From Singulisphaera sp. GP187 (lineage in GTDB: Bacteria; Planctomycetota; Phycisphaerae; Phycisphaerales; SM1A02): a stretch of 64,000 bases of DNA. The notes below the pieces were generated by a model that had not been told where the DNA came from, made no database searches, and was given only the letters and a program-made list of their open reading frames with translations. Positions 48,427-59,285 of the stretch are shown here, piece after piece. The translations under genes were made by a program, and so were the position numbers. Location of the stretch: the NCBI GenBank assembly GCA_945869475.1, contig CAMBOV010000008.1, forward strand, positions 62,001 to 126,000, in the 5' to 3' direction. Numbering within the stretch: the first letter of the stretch is position 1; each line of letters opens with the position of its first letter.

Positions 48427-48435
48427 AGGACTTTG

Positions 48436-48446
48436 AGTGTAGTCCT
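48436..48446. promoter_or_regulatory. bidirectional promoter between folC and the LOG gene
   Basis: Only 27 bases separate the two start codons. The folC -10 box (TACACT, minus, 48441-48436) and a weaker LOG -10 box (TAGTCC, plus, 48440-48445) share the central TA at 48440-48441. Both leaders must be almost absent. Confidence 0.45.
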
Positions 48447-48453
48447 CTCGGCA

Positions 48454-54077: not shown

Positions 54078-54554
54078 TTACTCTTGAGTTGGGGCGACTT
54101 CTGGAATTGAAGAAACTTCAGGATGGGCGACGCGATCAAGCACACCGTTGATGAACGGCGGGCTCTCTGCGTGGCTGTACTCCTTGGCGAGTTCGACGGC
54201 TTCGTTGATCGCAATGGCTGGTGGGATCCCACCATGCTTGATCTCGTAGTAGCCCAAGCGCAGGATGTTTCGGTCGATGTTCGGCTGACGACTCCACGCC
54301 CACTCAGGTGTGAGCAGGCTGAGTGCCGCGTCGGCCTCCTCGCGCATCGTCCACGCGAGGTGAGCGAGTTCGATTCCCTCGGCCACCACCGGAAGTTCAA
54401 AATCGCACTCCCGTTCAAAGTCGTTCTCGGAGCGCGCCTCGCGTGCACGCGACTCAAACGACTCGCGCAACTGCGCGAGATCGATCGTTCCGCCCAAGTC
54501 GAACTGAAAGAGTGCCTGCAGTGCGCAGCACCGTCGTTCATGTCCTCGACTCAT
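54078..54554 (-). CDS. nusB: transcription antitermination factor NusB
   Basis: NusB binds boxA RNA with NusE and supports rRNA antitermination. The 158-residue product starts SRGHERRCCALQALFQFDL and has the C-terminal helices RNILRLGYYEI...AINEAVELAKEYS...FINGVLDRVA typical of the family. The ATG at 54554 overlaps the ribH stop as ATGA; a long in-frame extension to 55133 is the shadow of ribH. An insertion around residues 35-65 (rich in Arg and Glu) lengthens it compared with the usual 140 residues. Confidence 0.93.
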   Translation of the reverse strand: MSRGHERRCCALQALFQFDLGGTIDLAQLRESFESRAREARSENDFERECDFELPVVAEGIELAHLAWTMREEADAALSLLTPEWAWSRQPNIDRNILRLGYYEIKHGGIPPAIAINEAVELAKEYSHAESPPFINGVLDRVAHPEVSSIPEVAPTQE

Positions 54555-55090
54555 CGGTTGGCTCCCAAGGCGCACGCCATCGATGGCGCGGTGCCCGCGC
54601 GAAGCGCATGAATTGCCTGCACGGTGCGTGTCGCAGCGATCGCAGCCCGCATTGCTTCGGCTCCCTTGTTGCCTTTGTTTCCACCGGCACGTGCGCGCGC
54701 CTGCTGAATCGTGAGACAGGTCAGCACACCGAATCCAACTGGTTTTCCGGTGCGAAGTGAGAGGTCGGCGAGACCATGTGCGACCGCGTCGCAGAGAAAT
54801 CGATCGTGACTCGTCTCTCCGGTCAGCACGCATCCGAGTGCGACAACCGCGTCGATCTCTTCGCGCGCCGCGAGAGCCGCACTGATCACAACGAGTTCGA
54901 ACGCTCCTGGAGCGGTGACGTGAATGAGGGCGTCGCGAGCGCCGCCCGCCTCGTAAAAAGTATCGCTCGCACCCTTCGCCATCGCGTGACAAATTTCTGC
55001 GTGATACTCGCTCGTCACCACGGCGATTCGCAAACCGCTCGCATCGATGGTTGGCGTTGACGCTGCGGCATGTGGACTCAGTGGCTTCAT
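54551..55090 (-). CDS. ribH: 6,7-dimethyl-8-ribityllumazine synthase
   Basis: RibH condenses the butanone phosphate and the pyrimidine in riboflavin synthesis. Motifs: VTSEYHAEIC near the N terminus, APGAFELVVISAALA, VVALGCVLTGETSHDRFLCDAVAHGL and PVGFGVLTCLT. Canonical GAxExP is here GAFELV and GETxHD is GETSHD, with the catalytic His present. At 179 residues it is a little longer than usual. It leads ribH-nusB-ftsY, the common ribH-nusB linkage. It is divergent from the UbiA-like gene with 27 bases between starts, so no FMN riboswitch fits. Confidence 0.95.
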   Translation of the reverse strand: MKPLSPHAAASTPTIDASGLRIAVVTSEYHAEICHAMAKGASDTFYEAGGARDALIHVTAPGAFELVVISAALAAREEIDAVVALGCVLTGETSHDRFLCDAVAHGLADLSLRTGKPVGFGVLTCLTIQQARARAGGNKGNKGAEAMRAAIAATRTVQAIHALRAGTAPSMACALGANR

Positions 55091-55101
55091 GGGGGTTGGG
55101 A

Positions 55102-55111
55102 ATGGTAGCCT
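55102..55111. promoter_or_regulatory. bidirectional promoter between ribH and the UbiA-family gene
   Basis: The sequence ATGGTAGCCT contains TACCAT on the minus strand (55107-55102, 11 bases before the ribH ATG) and TAGCCT on the plus strand (55106-55111, 6 bases before the GTG at 55118). The two -10 boxes share TA at 55106-55107. Confidence 0.55.
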
Positions 55112-55117
55112 GCCACT

Positions 55118-56092
55118 GTGCTGCGTGTGTCACGGAGATTTGTCTCGGCAGTCGAATTGACCCGACTTTCGATGGCGTTTGGCGCGATCACCGATCTCTG
55201 GCTCATCGTCATTCTCTCGCGCACCCACGGTGACTATCACTACATGCCGGTCGCATCGATGCCGCTCTGGCAGGCTCTGCTCTGCTCAGCCGTGACGGCC
55301 GTTGGGCTCTTTTCCTTCGCAGCGGCACTCAATGACATCCTCGACGCAAAGCACGATCGTATTTTTAGCCCAGGCAGACCCGTTGCCGCCGGAGACATCG
55401 GCTCGGCACAAGCGTTTCTCGTCGCGCTTGCATCACTGCTCTTGGCTCTCGCGGGAGTTCTCTCGTTTGGATCCGATGCACTCCTCATCGCGCTCATGGT
55501 CGCCGCTGGAAGCCTCTTCTATAACGGCACTGCGAAACACATCCCCGCCGTGGGACTGCTCACCGTCGGAATCTTGCACGCCGGCCACATGCTCATCCCA
55601 AACGAGCAGTTCACCTTCACACTTCCGGCGTGGCTTGCGATGACGCACGGCACCGCGGTCGCCACGATGATGCACGTTGTGCAATCGAAACGCCCCGCAC
55701 TCTCATCGCGTGCCATCTGGGCACTCGCAAGTGGATGGCTGCTCTGCAGCGCGCTGATCATTGGCTTTGGACTCTCGAAGTCAACGGGATCGTTCTGGCC
55801 CGAGTCAACACCGCTCTACGGACCATTCATCCCCCTCGTCGCGATCCTCGCCTTCGTCGCGGTCGTGCATCGAAAGGTCAAGCGCGCAACAACGGCTGGT
55901 ATCGCGGCAGAGAAGATCGCGCGGTATGGCGCACTCTGGCAATCTCTCTACGCGGCCGCGTGGCTCTTTTCGTGGGGCGAAAACTGGTGGGCGTTGATCG
56001 CACTTCTGCTTGCGGGTGTCGGGTTCGGCGCGATGACACTCTTGAAAGAACTCGGCGGCTCGGTCGCGCAGCCCGTCGCCTATCGCGGGTGA
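55118..56092 (+). CDS. UbiA-family prenyltransferase-like membrane protein
   Basis: A 324-residue integral membrane protein with about eight helices. The first Asp-rich motif is NDILDAKHDR (around 70-80), as in UbiA prenyltransferases, followed by SPGRPVAAG. I cannot find the second Asp-rich motif; the equivalent region reads MHVVQSKRPALSS. It could be a divergent prenyltransferase or a transporter-like relative. It is not part of the menaquinone operon. The start is GTG 55118, 6 bases after a TAGCCT box. Confidence 0.78.
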   Translation: MLRVSRRFVSAVELTRLSMAFGAITDLWLIVILSRTHGDYHYMPVASMPLWQALLCSAVTAVGLFSFAAALNDILDAKHDRIFSPGRPVAAGDIGSAQAFLVALASLLLALAGVLSFGSDALLIALMVAAGSLFYNGTAKHIPAVGLLTVGILHAGHMLIPNEQFTFTLPAWLAMTHGTAVATMMHVVQSKRPALSSRAIWALASGWLLCSALIIGFGLSKSTGSFWPESTPLYGPFIPLVAILAFVAVVHRKVKRATTAGIAAEKIARYGALWQSLYAAAWLFSWGENWWALIALLLAGVGFGAMTLLKELGGSVAQPVAYRG

Positions 56093-56141: not shown

Positions 56142-59100
56142 ATGCGCCTGACGAGTCGACTTCTTCTTCGATTTCTCTCAACCGCGCTTCTTGTCGTCGG
56201 CGTTGCCGTGACGACGGCCCCTGCCCAAGAACTTCGTGATGTCGCGATCACTGGACAATCGATGGGAGGTTTCGTCCTTCCCACCGAACCCGTCTCGAGT
56301 GAAATTGTCATCGCTGGTGTGCGCGCTTGGGCGTGGGATGTCGATGACACCAAGCGCTTGCAGATCGAAGGCGATGTTCGGGTCAAATTCGGCGGCTACT
56401 ACTTCTCGAGTGACGTCGCGGTCATCTGGATCAACCGCATCCCAAGCAGCGAAGGACTCATCAATCAAATCGCGGTCTACTTTCCTGAGGCCGAAGAGCC
56501 AACACGTCGGGCAGGTCTCGGCGCGAGCGGAAGCGACCTCTTGGTGACTGGCAGCACTCGCGGCGAAATCACTCTTTCGATCACGATGCTCGAGTCGCAC
56601 GCGCCCGTCGACAATCCAATGCTTCGTCAAGGTGTCTCGCGGCTCAAGAACTATCTCGAATCGGTTGCGCGCGGAGCACTCTTGCGCACGAGACCGCAAC
56701 TCGACACGCCTCCGCTCATCGTCGAACCACCGCTCGTGGTGGGAGATGCTGTTTCAGCGCTCGCGCCTGTACCGCCGCTGCCCGCCGCGACGGTGCGATT
56801 ACCCGTCGATGACGGGATGATTTTTCGCCCCAAGGGAACGCTCTCTTTCGCAGCGAACGACACGACGATCGAAACGAAAGACAATTGCGTCATCCTCAGT
56901 GGATCGGTTCGCGTCGATTATGTGAGTCCTCCGGGCGAGGGAATGGTGCGCGAACTGCAACTCTCGGCCGATCGCGCAGTGATTTTTCTCGCGCCCAAGA
57001 ACGAGGGCGACGCAGCGACGGATGAGCGTTCGCGCGAGAGCGGCATGCTCGACGCACAAGAGGTCACTGGCATCTATCTCGAAGGGGACGTCGTCGCAAC
57101 GGACTACAAGTACACACTTCGGGGACGGCGCATCTACTACGACATGGCGCTCAATCAAGCAATCGTGATGGACGCCATCATGCGAACCTCGATGCGTGGC
57201 GGCATCCTCGCCTATGCCCGAGCCGATGAGATGCGTCAACTTGCCGCGGATGAGTTCGCGGCGACCAACGCCCGCGTTTCGACGAGCGAGTTCTTTACTC
57301 CTCATCTCTCGGTCGGTGTGCAGCGACTCACCATCACGCAGAACCCCGAGTTGCCAGGCGGCGCGTACATGACGGGCACGGACGCGACGTTGCGCGCGAA
57401 GGGCGTCCCGTTTCTCTATTGGCCGCAGATCGCCGGCTCACCAAATCAGATTCCGCTCAAGCGCGTCAACGTTGGATTCCAGGACTACCAGGGAACGATG
57501 ATCGATTCTGCGTGGGATCTCTTTGACTTGATGGGGGTCGATCATCCGACCGACGGAACGAAGGTGACGCTTTTGCAAGAGGCGTACACCAAGAACGCGT
57601 TGGGTCTGGGTGCTCAGGCAGAAGCGCTTCTCTTCGGCGGCAAGGGCACCTTGCAGGCGATGGGCTACTACGACTTTCAGAACGAAGAGCAGACGGCCGC
57701 TGGCGGCATCGTCACGAGTCCATCGACGACGCGCGGCGAGGTGGTGGGTGATTGGCGCGGCAAACTTGCCAGTGACGCGACGCTCGACTTTCAACTCTCG
57801 TACTTCAGCGATCAGAACTTCGTCTCGGTCTTTCGCTGGGACGATTACTTGCAGCGCCGTGAGTATGAGACGAGCGGCTACCTCAACTGGGAGAGTGGCA
57901 ACAACTCGCTCTCGCTCTTGGTGAAGTACAACCCAAACGACTTTCTCAGCAACGCCTACATGATTGCGTCGCGACCCTACTCGGTCGACAAGTTTCCAGA
58001 GCTTGCCTATCACCGCTACGGCGAGTCACTCTTTGGCGATCGAGTGACGTGGACTCAGGATTACTCGGCGAACATCATGCGATTGCAAGTGCAATCTGGC
58101 ACGCCGGCAGACCTGGGTATCAGCGCACGTGCGTTCTCGCAGAACACCGCCTTCACGTCGTCGCAATCGATCACGGACGCATACAACGACGCGGGCTACG
58201 ACGACCTCATGCGCTCGCGCATTTACGTCAGGCAAGAGCTCGCGATGCCGCTCTCACTCGGTCCTGTCAAGGCTGTCCCTTTCATGCATGGACAAACCGC
58301 TGGATACATGCTGAACGACTTCGATAAGTACTCGACCGATGGTTCGAATCTGCGCACATTGGTCGGAGCAGGAAGCCGTTTCTCATCCGAATTCACATCG
58401 AAGTACAACTCCGTTCGCAGTTCGTTTCTCGATCTCAATCGCTTGCACCACGTGATCCAACCCAATGCGATGCTTTGGTATGGATGGAACTCGACGAGTG
58501 TGCTCGACATGCCCGTCTACGACCAAGAGATCGAGGCAGTCTCAGCAGCAGCCGTCGCGCAAGCGGGACTCACCACGAAGTTGCAGACGATGCGCGGAGG
58601 TCCTGGCAATTGGAAATCGGTCGATTGGGTCGTGCTCGGCGGCGGTGTCGTCGTCGACAATCAGAACGACTCGCTGCAATCGACCGAAACGGTCACCGAT
58701 CCATATGGATTGCAGTACGCGCAAACTCCGATGCCTACGTTTTATTCGTGGCGTCCTGAGTATTCACAGTGGGGAGATCACCTCTACGGCACGGGCACGT
58801 GGCAGTGCAGTGACGCGCTGACCTTTTATGGACAAGGCACCTATCTCTTGCAGGATCGCGGTAACTCGATCAACAGCTTCGGAGTCGAGAACCTCGGACG
58901 AGGAACGATCGGTGGAAGCATCCAACAGTCGCCCGACGTGCGCTTCTACTTGGAGTATCGCTACGTCAACACCTTCGACCCGACCGGGCTCTATCCCGCC
59001 GATGAATTCATTCAGGGTGGCATCGCCTACCAAGTCTCGAAGAAGTATTCGCTCACCGTGTCGCCTCAGTACGACCTCGTTGAGTCGAACTTTCGAAGTG

Positions 59101-59285
59101 CATCGGTCGCGCTCACTCGAACTTTTCCTGACTTCTATCTTTCGATTGGCGCATCGTTCAATCAGATCGTCGACAACACCGCATTCTTCGCATCGGTTCG
59201 CATTCCAGGCGCGGGCGGCGGAGGCACGAGCTTCACTCCAGGGGCGCCGGGTGGCGGCATCCCAGGATTCGGTCAGCAGGAATAA
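56142..59285 (+). CDS. lptD: LPS-assembly protein LptD-like outer membrane protein
   Basis: The 1047-residue product has a signal peptide (about 1-28, ending TAPAQE), an OstA/LptA-like beta-jellyroll region with IEGDVRVKFGGYYFSSDVAVI and DVVATDYKYTLRGRRIYYD (about 70-400), and a C-terminal beta-barrel of about 26 strands (from about 420, many alternating aromatic segments such as RFYLEYRYVNTF). It would insert lipopolysaccharide-like lipids in the outer leaflet. It supports a diderm envelope. A Gly/Pro-rich tail follows the barrel. No LptE is nearby. Its last 13 bases overlap ruvB on the opposite strand. Confidence 0.85.
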   Translation: MRLTSRLLLRFLSTALLVVGVAVTTAPAQELRDVAITGQSMGGFVLPTEPVSSEIVIAGVRAWAWDVDDTKRLQIEGDVRVKFGGYYFSSDVAVIWINRIPSSEGLINQIAVYFPEAEEPTRRAGLGASGSDLLVTGSTRGEITLSITMLESHAPVDNPMLRQGVSRLKNYLESVARGALLRTRPQLDTPPLIVEPPLVVGDAVSALAPVPPLPAATVRLPVDDGMIFRPKGTLSFAANDTTIETKDNCVILSGSVRVDYVSPPGEGMVRELQLSADRAVIFLAPKNEGDAATDERSRESGMLDAQEVTGIYLEGDVVATDYKYTLRGRRIYYDMALNQAIVMDAIMRTSMRGGILAYARADEMRQLAADEFAATNARVSTSEFFTPHLSVGVQRLTITQNPELPGGAYMTGTDATLRAKGVPFLYWPQIAGSPNQIPLKRVNVGFQDYQGTMIDSAWDLFDLMGVDHPTDGTKVTLLQEAYTKNALGLGAQAEALLFGGKGTLQAMGYYDFQNEEQTAAGGIVTSPSTTRGEVVGDWRGKLASDATLDFQLSYFSDQNFVSVFRWDDYLQRREYETSGYLNWESGNNSLSLLVKYNPNDFLSNAYMIASRPYSVDKFPELAYHRYGESLFGDRVTWTQDYSANIMRLQVQSGTPADLGISARAFSQNTAFTSSQSITDAYNDAGYDDLMRSRIYVRQELAMPLSLGPVKAVPFMHGQTAGYMLNDFDKYSTDGSNLRTLVGAGSRFSSEFTSKYNSVRSSFLDLNRLHHVIQPNAMLWYGWNSTSVLDMPVYDQEIEAVSAAAVAQAGLTTKLQTMRGGPGNWKSVDWVVLGGGVVVDNQNDSLQSTETVTDPYGLQYAQTPMPTFYSWRPEYSQWGDHLYGTGTWQCSDALTFYGQGTYLLQDRGNSINSFGVENLGRGTIGGSIQQSPDVRFYLEYRYVNTFDPTGLYPADEFIQGGIAYQVSKKYSLTVSPQYDLVESNFRSASVALTRTFPDFYLSIGASFNQIVDNTAFFASVRIPGAGGGGTSFTPGAPGGGIPGFGQQE

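Follow-up and report, generated by a model that had tools for sequence, protein, structure and literature searches.

Described bidirectional promoters and the ribH/UbiA locus

The bidirectional promoters of bacteria and archaea reportedly entered the literature with a founding paper by Warman, Grainger and colleagues in 2021. In the portions of the literature used here, such a promoter is defined by -10 elements that overlap reciprocally and by divergent start sites separated by 7-25 bp (PMC10268837), and start-site distances of 18, 10 and 23 bp are described as common (PMC12825309). Polymerases are barred from occupying both orientations together (PMC12825309), and on the Salmonella chromosome they lie preferentially between divergent genes (PMC12825309 / PMC10268837). 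Amid long leaders and regulators, it is difficult to tell whether bacterial bidirectional promoters are selected both ways or arise as a side effect of -10 symmetry. Leaderless bacterial genes are described as carrying TANNNT approximately 12 bp upstream of the start codon, and in high-GC groups its middle bases are said to be loosely defined (PMC3160421). The main text of that paper contains "planctomycet" and "divergent" 0 times and treats neither subject under those words. In full-text searches, mostly without subscription papers, no title or abstract opening described start-codon-locked bidirectional pairs in bacteria, which is weak evidence of absence. One literature search on leaderless genes and start sites in planctomycetes yielded a single paper, which concerned Sinorhizobium.

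The window, i.e., the whole stretch of 64,000 nucleotides analysed here, is part of a 2.55-Mb, 32-contig genome and contains ribH and a UbiA-family gene in divergent orientation (Table 1). The initial annotation had claimed that their 27-base gap is a shared promoter, in which TACCAT and TAGCCT lie opposed around one TA, and that the plus-strand gene would be strictly leaderless. The length was confirmed by the ATG at 55090 (minus) and the GTG at 55118 (plus), and both hexamers are present and have T55106/A55107 in common. Strict leaderlessness of the UbiA gene was supported as a prediction, its GTG lying 6 nt past TAGCCT. The idea of a shared promoter was supported by an overlapping -10 pair with both halves conserved in 19/19 genomes of the genus. 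This conservation, together with the single occurrence of ATGGTAGCCTNNNNNNRTG in the whole genome (reversed control, 0), speaks against a chance match. Assuming 6 nt between hexamer and transcription start, the predicted UbiA and ribH start sites would be 23 bp apart.

The opposite-strand -10 overlap in the definition of PMC10268837 is found here as ANNNTANNNT at 55102-55111 in 19/19 genus genomes. As in the published promoters, the opposite-strand -10 elements overlap, and the distance between start sites is predicted to be 23 bp here and 18 bp at recG/xseA; however, the published start sites are measured, whereas those of ribH/UbiA are predicted. Unlike the published promoters as described in these sources, the element takes up the entire gap and lacks a visible -35, and its two halves are conserved genus-wide; the UbiA start codon coincides with the predicted start site, and the ribH leader would be approximately 5 nt. 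The UbiA gene resembles the leaderless genes of PMC3160421 in that the first T of TANNNT lies exactly at -12, and in its loose middle bases. Particular to this locus are an element that spans the distance between the start codons and a UbiA gene predicted to have no leader. The best reading of ribH/UbiA appears to be a compact variant of the known bidirectional promoters, and we assign a probability of roughly 80% to the gap being a single bidirectional promoter of which only the -10 element is left. With start codons on or beside the element, the conservation of both halves becomes readable. The locus could serve as a test case straight away, given 19 genomes, the natural variant GCTACCTT, and relatives in which the same two genes have separate signals.

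Table 1. Features of the ribH/UbiA locus and the folC/LOG gap (positions in the window)
Feature	Position	Strand	Remarks
Start-to-start gap, ribH/UbiA-family gene	55091..55117	.	27 bp here; 26-29 bp in 19/19 genus genomes
Shared core ATGGTAGCCT, pattern ANNNTANNNT	55102..55111	.	key bases identical in 19/19 genus genomes
-10-like hexamer TAGCCT of UbiA-family gene	55106..55111	+	GTG exactly 6 nt downstream
-10-like hexamer TACCAT of ribH	55102..55107	-	TACCAT or TAGCAT in 19/19 genus genomes
Predicted UbiA transcription start, leaderless	55118	+	first base of GTG; inferred from 6-nt spacing and genome-wide TANNNT peak at -12
Predicted ribH leader, 5 nt, start site 55095	55091..55095	-	inferred; leader 4-7 nt in genus
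UbiA-family prenyltransferase-like gene	55118..56092	+	GTG start at 55118; Pfam UbiA 1.5e-11
ribH, 6,7-dimethyl-8-ribityllumazine synthase	54551..55090	-	ATG at 55090; Pfam DMRL_synthase 1.1e-44
nusB	54078..54554	-	gene call; NusB match within 54078-54620
folC/LOG gap	48427..48453	.	27 bp; both starts in frame in 19/19 genus loci

A sigma-70 consensus scan of 54900-55300 found 0 -35 elements (TTGACA) at 16-18 bp, and a classical sigma-70 promoter at ribH/UbiA was rejected on this empty scan. A known RNA element was also rejected; an Rfam search of 54500-55700 gave no match up to E = 1. The ribH ATG is preceded by five C, that is, by no ribosome-binding site. The nusB gene call and the end of ribH overlap by 4 nt; therefore, the two are probably on one transcript. 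A coding-only gene caller favoured a later UbiA ATG (55172) by 2.9 log units, or 1.7 after retraining; the start at 55118 is backed by an RTG at that place in 19/19 genus genomes and by conserved residues before ATG 55172.

The UbiA-family protein (55118-56092) had no NCBIfam match above cut-off, the best being EboC at 54.5 bits where 250 are needed. Its named relatives were mostly planctomycete MAGs, many of them labelled Phycisphaerales, and among the best 80 UbiA protein relatives SIAR01000018.1 was the closest (88% identity). The copy in G014 (L043) has QA..D in place of the otherwise conserved ND..D motif and may differ in activity. Just 3' of the UbiA gene, a 1047-aa ORF (56142-59285) showed no Pfam match at 0.001.

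Leaderless-type signals and divergent registers in the genome

We sampled 864 kb (the window and 40 stretches), or 34% of the genome, with 596 gene calls from a home-made caller, by which start positions are uncertain. TANNNT with a leader of 0-5 nt preceded 128/581 sampled genes; the control offset, 20 bp farther upstream, gave 12. Before 170 starts of divergent genes, TANNNT occurred 18 times at -12 and 61 times over -17 to -12, and elsewhere between -24 and -6 only 0-3 times per offset. The consensus of these leaderless-type -10 signals, TA(C/G)N(C/A)T, fits both the ribH and the UbiA hexamer, and the 128 aligned upstream regions, judged by eye, showed no -35-like base preference. By these counts, a large group of genes in the genome is preceded by signals of leaderless type, a situation also reported for other bacteria of high GC content (PMC3160421). 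This is an indication that leaderless genes are in wide use in this planctomycete group.

We then surveyed the divergent pairs, 85 in number, of which 68 (gap 5-400) were used for gap lengths and 67 (gap 12-300) for registers. The initial annotation had read the equal length of the folC/LOG gap as a sign of constraint, which was not supported, and had proposed to look for a genome-wide peak of divergent gaps near 25-33 bases. Among the 68 pairs, 3 gaps were at most 24 bp, 9 were 25-33, 5 were 34-42, 6 were 43-51 and 3 were 52-60, and the 42 longer ones comprised 13 of 61-100, 13 of 101-200 and 16 above 200. Short divergent gaps are common in the sampled genome, and the spread is broad; a spike at 27 bp was rejected. 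The idea of a fixed length in common with folC/LOG was rejected as well, since the ribH/UbiA gap varies from 26 to 29 bp in the genus. The equality of 27 and 27 follows the arithmetic of the shared-TA register, where the gap is 22 plus two leaders: 22+0+5 at ribH/UbiA and 22+2+3 at folC/LOG.

A hexamer on both sides with leaders of 0-6 nt was found in 21/67 divergent pairs. The shared TA (23-bp register) is rare in this sample, at 3/67 pairs, namely gidA/pepA, M42 peptidase/ribBA and ribH/UbiA itself; the 18-bp register occurred in 1/67 (recG/xseA), and other overlapping registers in 0/67. In the survey, a gene could take any alternative start within 5 log units, and a -10 earned a start a bonus; the same rules were applied to the shuffles. 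Shuffled gaps gave means of 2.74 both-sided pairs, 0.24 with a shared TA, 0.14 in the 18-bp register and 0.05 otherwise overlapping. Three shared-TA pairs were reached in 1/300 shuffles, the pair that prompted the survey being counted among the three. When leader lengths were permuted among the 21 pairs, at least 4 symmetric cases arose at a frequency of 0.0004, again with ribH/UbiA included. A survey without enrichment of shared TA pairs had been named as grounds for refutation. The outcome speaks weakly against refutation: 3/67 pairs, ribH/UbiA among them, compare with the mean of 0.24 in the shuffles.

These counts bear on a second explanation, in which two back-to-back leaderless promoters were pressed together by genome compaction and the shared TA reflects close packing without a function of its own. 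Of the 21/67 pairs with TANNNT on both sides, 17 lie outside the overlapping symmetric registers, as packing would have it, and of the 18 gidA/pepA loci of the genus 5 are fused and 13 have longer gaps. However, the overlapping pairs in the sample are in symmetric registers only, and the fused state is kept in 19/19 loci at ribH/UbiA, 19/19 at recG/xseA and 17/17 at M42/ribBA. Moreover, compaction is an account of origin, by which sharing is not excluded. We regard a functionless shared TA as a real possibility with the odds somewhat against it, and compaction as the likely origin of the shared promoter; the confidences given to the readings overlap because compaction and sharing are not mutually exclusive.

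Conservation of the two halves

We searched 61 genomes, our own included, and obtained ribH matches in 59 and UbiA matches in 56. The two genes were divergent in 19/19 genus genomes examined. These genomes are related, and counts among them are not independent events. The gap was 26 bp in 4 genomes, 27 in 11, 28 in 2 and 29 in 2. The UbiA start codon was GTG in 15 and ATG in 4, and the plus hexamer was TAGCCT in 15, TACCTT in 3 and TAACCT in 1. An RTG stood 6 nt past this hexamer in 18/19 genomes and 7 nt past it in G004, and the predicted ribH leader was 4-7 nt in 19/19. Three genomes (G013, G017 and G004) carry GCTACCTT in place of GGTAGCCT, with both hexamers still present.

Mean pairwise identity among the 19 genomes was 1.00 for the four key bases, 0.845 for the six middle hexamer bases and 0.391 for the twelve flanking gap bases, compared with 0.45 for UbiA third codon positions. 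That is, the flanking bases are conserved no better than third codon positions. Judged by the key bases at 1.00 and the flanks at 0.391, the unit under selection is the hexamer pair and not the gap. The middle bases, at 0.845, exceed background conservation, as they might if the conserved 10-mer were the operator of a transcription factor controlling both ribH and UbiA. However, conservation ends at the edges of the two hexamers, on which ground this reading was rejected; the hexamers match the genome's own -10 consensus, and the motif with its start-codon spacing (ATGGTAGCCTNNNNNNRTG) has 1 occurrence in the whole genome (reversed control, 0). We consider an operator highly improbable.

Next, we asked whether the ribH half is selected as well, with loci outside the genus as the control. 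The 124 UbiA loci included 28 duplicates, which were dropped, and of the 96 distinct loci 89 had a divergent ribH. TANNNT with a leader of 0-2 nt was present in 87/96 and absent in 9/96; the 68 hexamer-bearing loci outside the genus formed the control. The A at -4, which is required by the ribH hexamer alone, was found in 19/19 genus genomes but in 7/68 loci outside (Fisher 9e-14, relatedness ignored). Likewise, T at -3 occurred in 19/19 against 8/68, and ATG at -4 to -2 in 19/19 against 2/68 (Fisher 3e-17, relatedness ignored). G at -2 occurred in 19/19, yet also in 47/68 outside, and proves little on this point. The distribution of A-4 therefore argues that both directions of the core are under selection.

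The two ATG exceptions outside the genus, L116 and L141, each carry an identical ATGGTAGCCT. At L116 (G035, another genus), the ribH ATG gives a 3-nt leader and a gap of 26 bp. At L141, ATGGTAGCCT is kept, although the sole ribH ATG found implies a 31-nt leader. Among the 89 distinct loci with divergent ribH, 20 (19 of the genus and L116) combine the shared register with a leader of at most 7 nt for ribH. Most other such loci retain the pair with longer gaps, as in G033, where the gap is 32 and the hexamers are 6 bp apart.

The same positions bear on a one-way promoter, in which an extended -10 (TGNTANNNT) serves UbiA, the leaderless gene, and nothing else. TACCAT would then be incidental, and the ribH transcript would start at another place, e.g., inside UbiA. 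An extended -10 has the form TGN. T-3 and G-2, present in 19/19 genus genomes, fit TGN, G at -2 is frequent outside the genus too (47/68), and UbiA promoters of the TANNNT type are widely kept where ribH is farther off. Conservation of the left half could serve UbiA alone in part through such an extended -10; A-4 and T-3 argue otherwise. A-4 lies outside the extended -10, yet it largely separates the genus from the other loci; the TG pair is found in 4/68 UbiA loci outside the genus, and the genome's leaderless-type promoters lack it (T at -3, 0.20; G at -2, mildly in excess at 0.41). In addition, the ribH ATG stands at a predicted leader of 4-7 nt in 19/19. A promoter for UbiA only is in our estimation unlikely, and the best reading would be that ATGGTAGCCT is a real, selectively kept bidirectional -10 element.

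Proposed mechanism and other compact pairs of the genus

In the mechanism that we propose, RNA polymerase with, presumably, the housekeeping sigma factor could bind ATGGTAGCCT facing either way, since the T and A opening one -10 hexamer double as the A and T opening the other. One orientation would place the start at 55118, on the G of the UbiA GTG, and yield a leaderless mRNA; the opposite one would place it near 55095 and yield a ribH-nusB mRNA with a leader of approximately 5 nt. Translation of UbiA would be leaderless, and that of ribH is assumed to proceed from the 5-nt leader. A single polymerase would occupy the site at a time by mutual exclusion, so that ribH and UbiA would compete mildly for initiation. 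With almost no 5' UTR, the start codons would be tied to the vicinity of the element.

The pairs recG/xseA, M42/ribBA, gidA/pepA and folC/LOG have an ultra-compact divergent design like that of ribH/UbiA. At recG/xseA (L085:4178-7876; L268-L286), an 18-bp gap with TACGATAG in the 18-bp register was found in 19/19 genus loci. In-frame starts gave an xseA leader of 0 in 18 loci and 1 in 1, and a recG leader of 0-2. We predict a promoter that is leaderless or nearly so both ways, a tighter case than ribH/UbiA; it differs from the latter in its register and in being leaderless, by this prediction, on both sides.

M42 peptidase/ribBA (L068:14753-17265) is a second pair with a riboflavin gene. Its shared-TA core, AGGATAAAGT, was found in 17/17 genus loci, a ribBA search at 1e-40 having given no match in 2/19 genus genomes; a longer core with the tail GAAC was present in 12/17 loci. 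The M42 peptidase ATG lies in frame exactly 6 nt from the core in 17/17, and the gene is predicted to be strictly leaderless. In contrast to ribH/UbiA, the strict gene is the minus-strand one, and the leader of ribBA is variable (3-13 nt).

The folC/LOG gap has the same shared-TA register, with the core GAGTGTA in 19/19 genus loci and the minus hexamer TACACT. Its plus hexamer (TAGTCC) lacks the final T, and in the genus its last base is C or A, followed directly by a T. Because of this missing T, folC/LOG is not an exact parallel to ribH/UbiA. This pair is more rigid in length than ribH/UbiA despite a defective-looking, conserved plus -10.

At gidA/pepA (L066:5697-9310; L233-L250), the fused loci have a gap of 25-26 bp and the 13 unfused ones have gaps of 32-60, with L243 placed roughly. 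In 7 of the 13, ANNNTANNNT still stands before pepA, and gidA would require a longer leader to be served by it. These loci are possibly a natural series of the fusion or splitting of a bidirectional promoter. As far as the motifs tell, some fused promoters are kept in the genus and another comes and goes.

A wider reading for the lineage (Phycisphaerales) is tentative, and we hold it to be rather doubtful as a whole. Single pseudo-symmetric -10 elements without a -35 and with hardly any 5' UTR would have come to form the whole regulatory region of several housekeeping pairs (ribH/UbiA, M42 peptidase/ribBA and recG/xseA). Each would set where transcription and translation begin, strictly for at least one gene and within a few bases for the other; expression would be coupled through mutually exclusive polymerase binding, and both directions would be selected genus-wide.

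In every shared-TA pair of G000, and likewise in G035, the leader lengths of the two genes add up to 4 or 5 nt. The leader pairs were 0+5, 4+0, 4+0, 2+3 and 1+3, and 0+0 was absent among these small numbers. For ribH/UbiA, the leader sum in the genus was 4-7.
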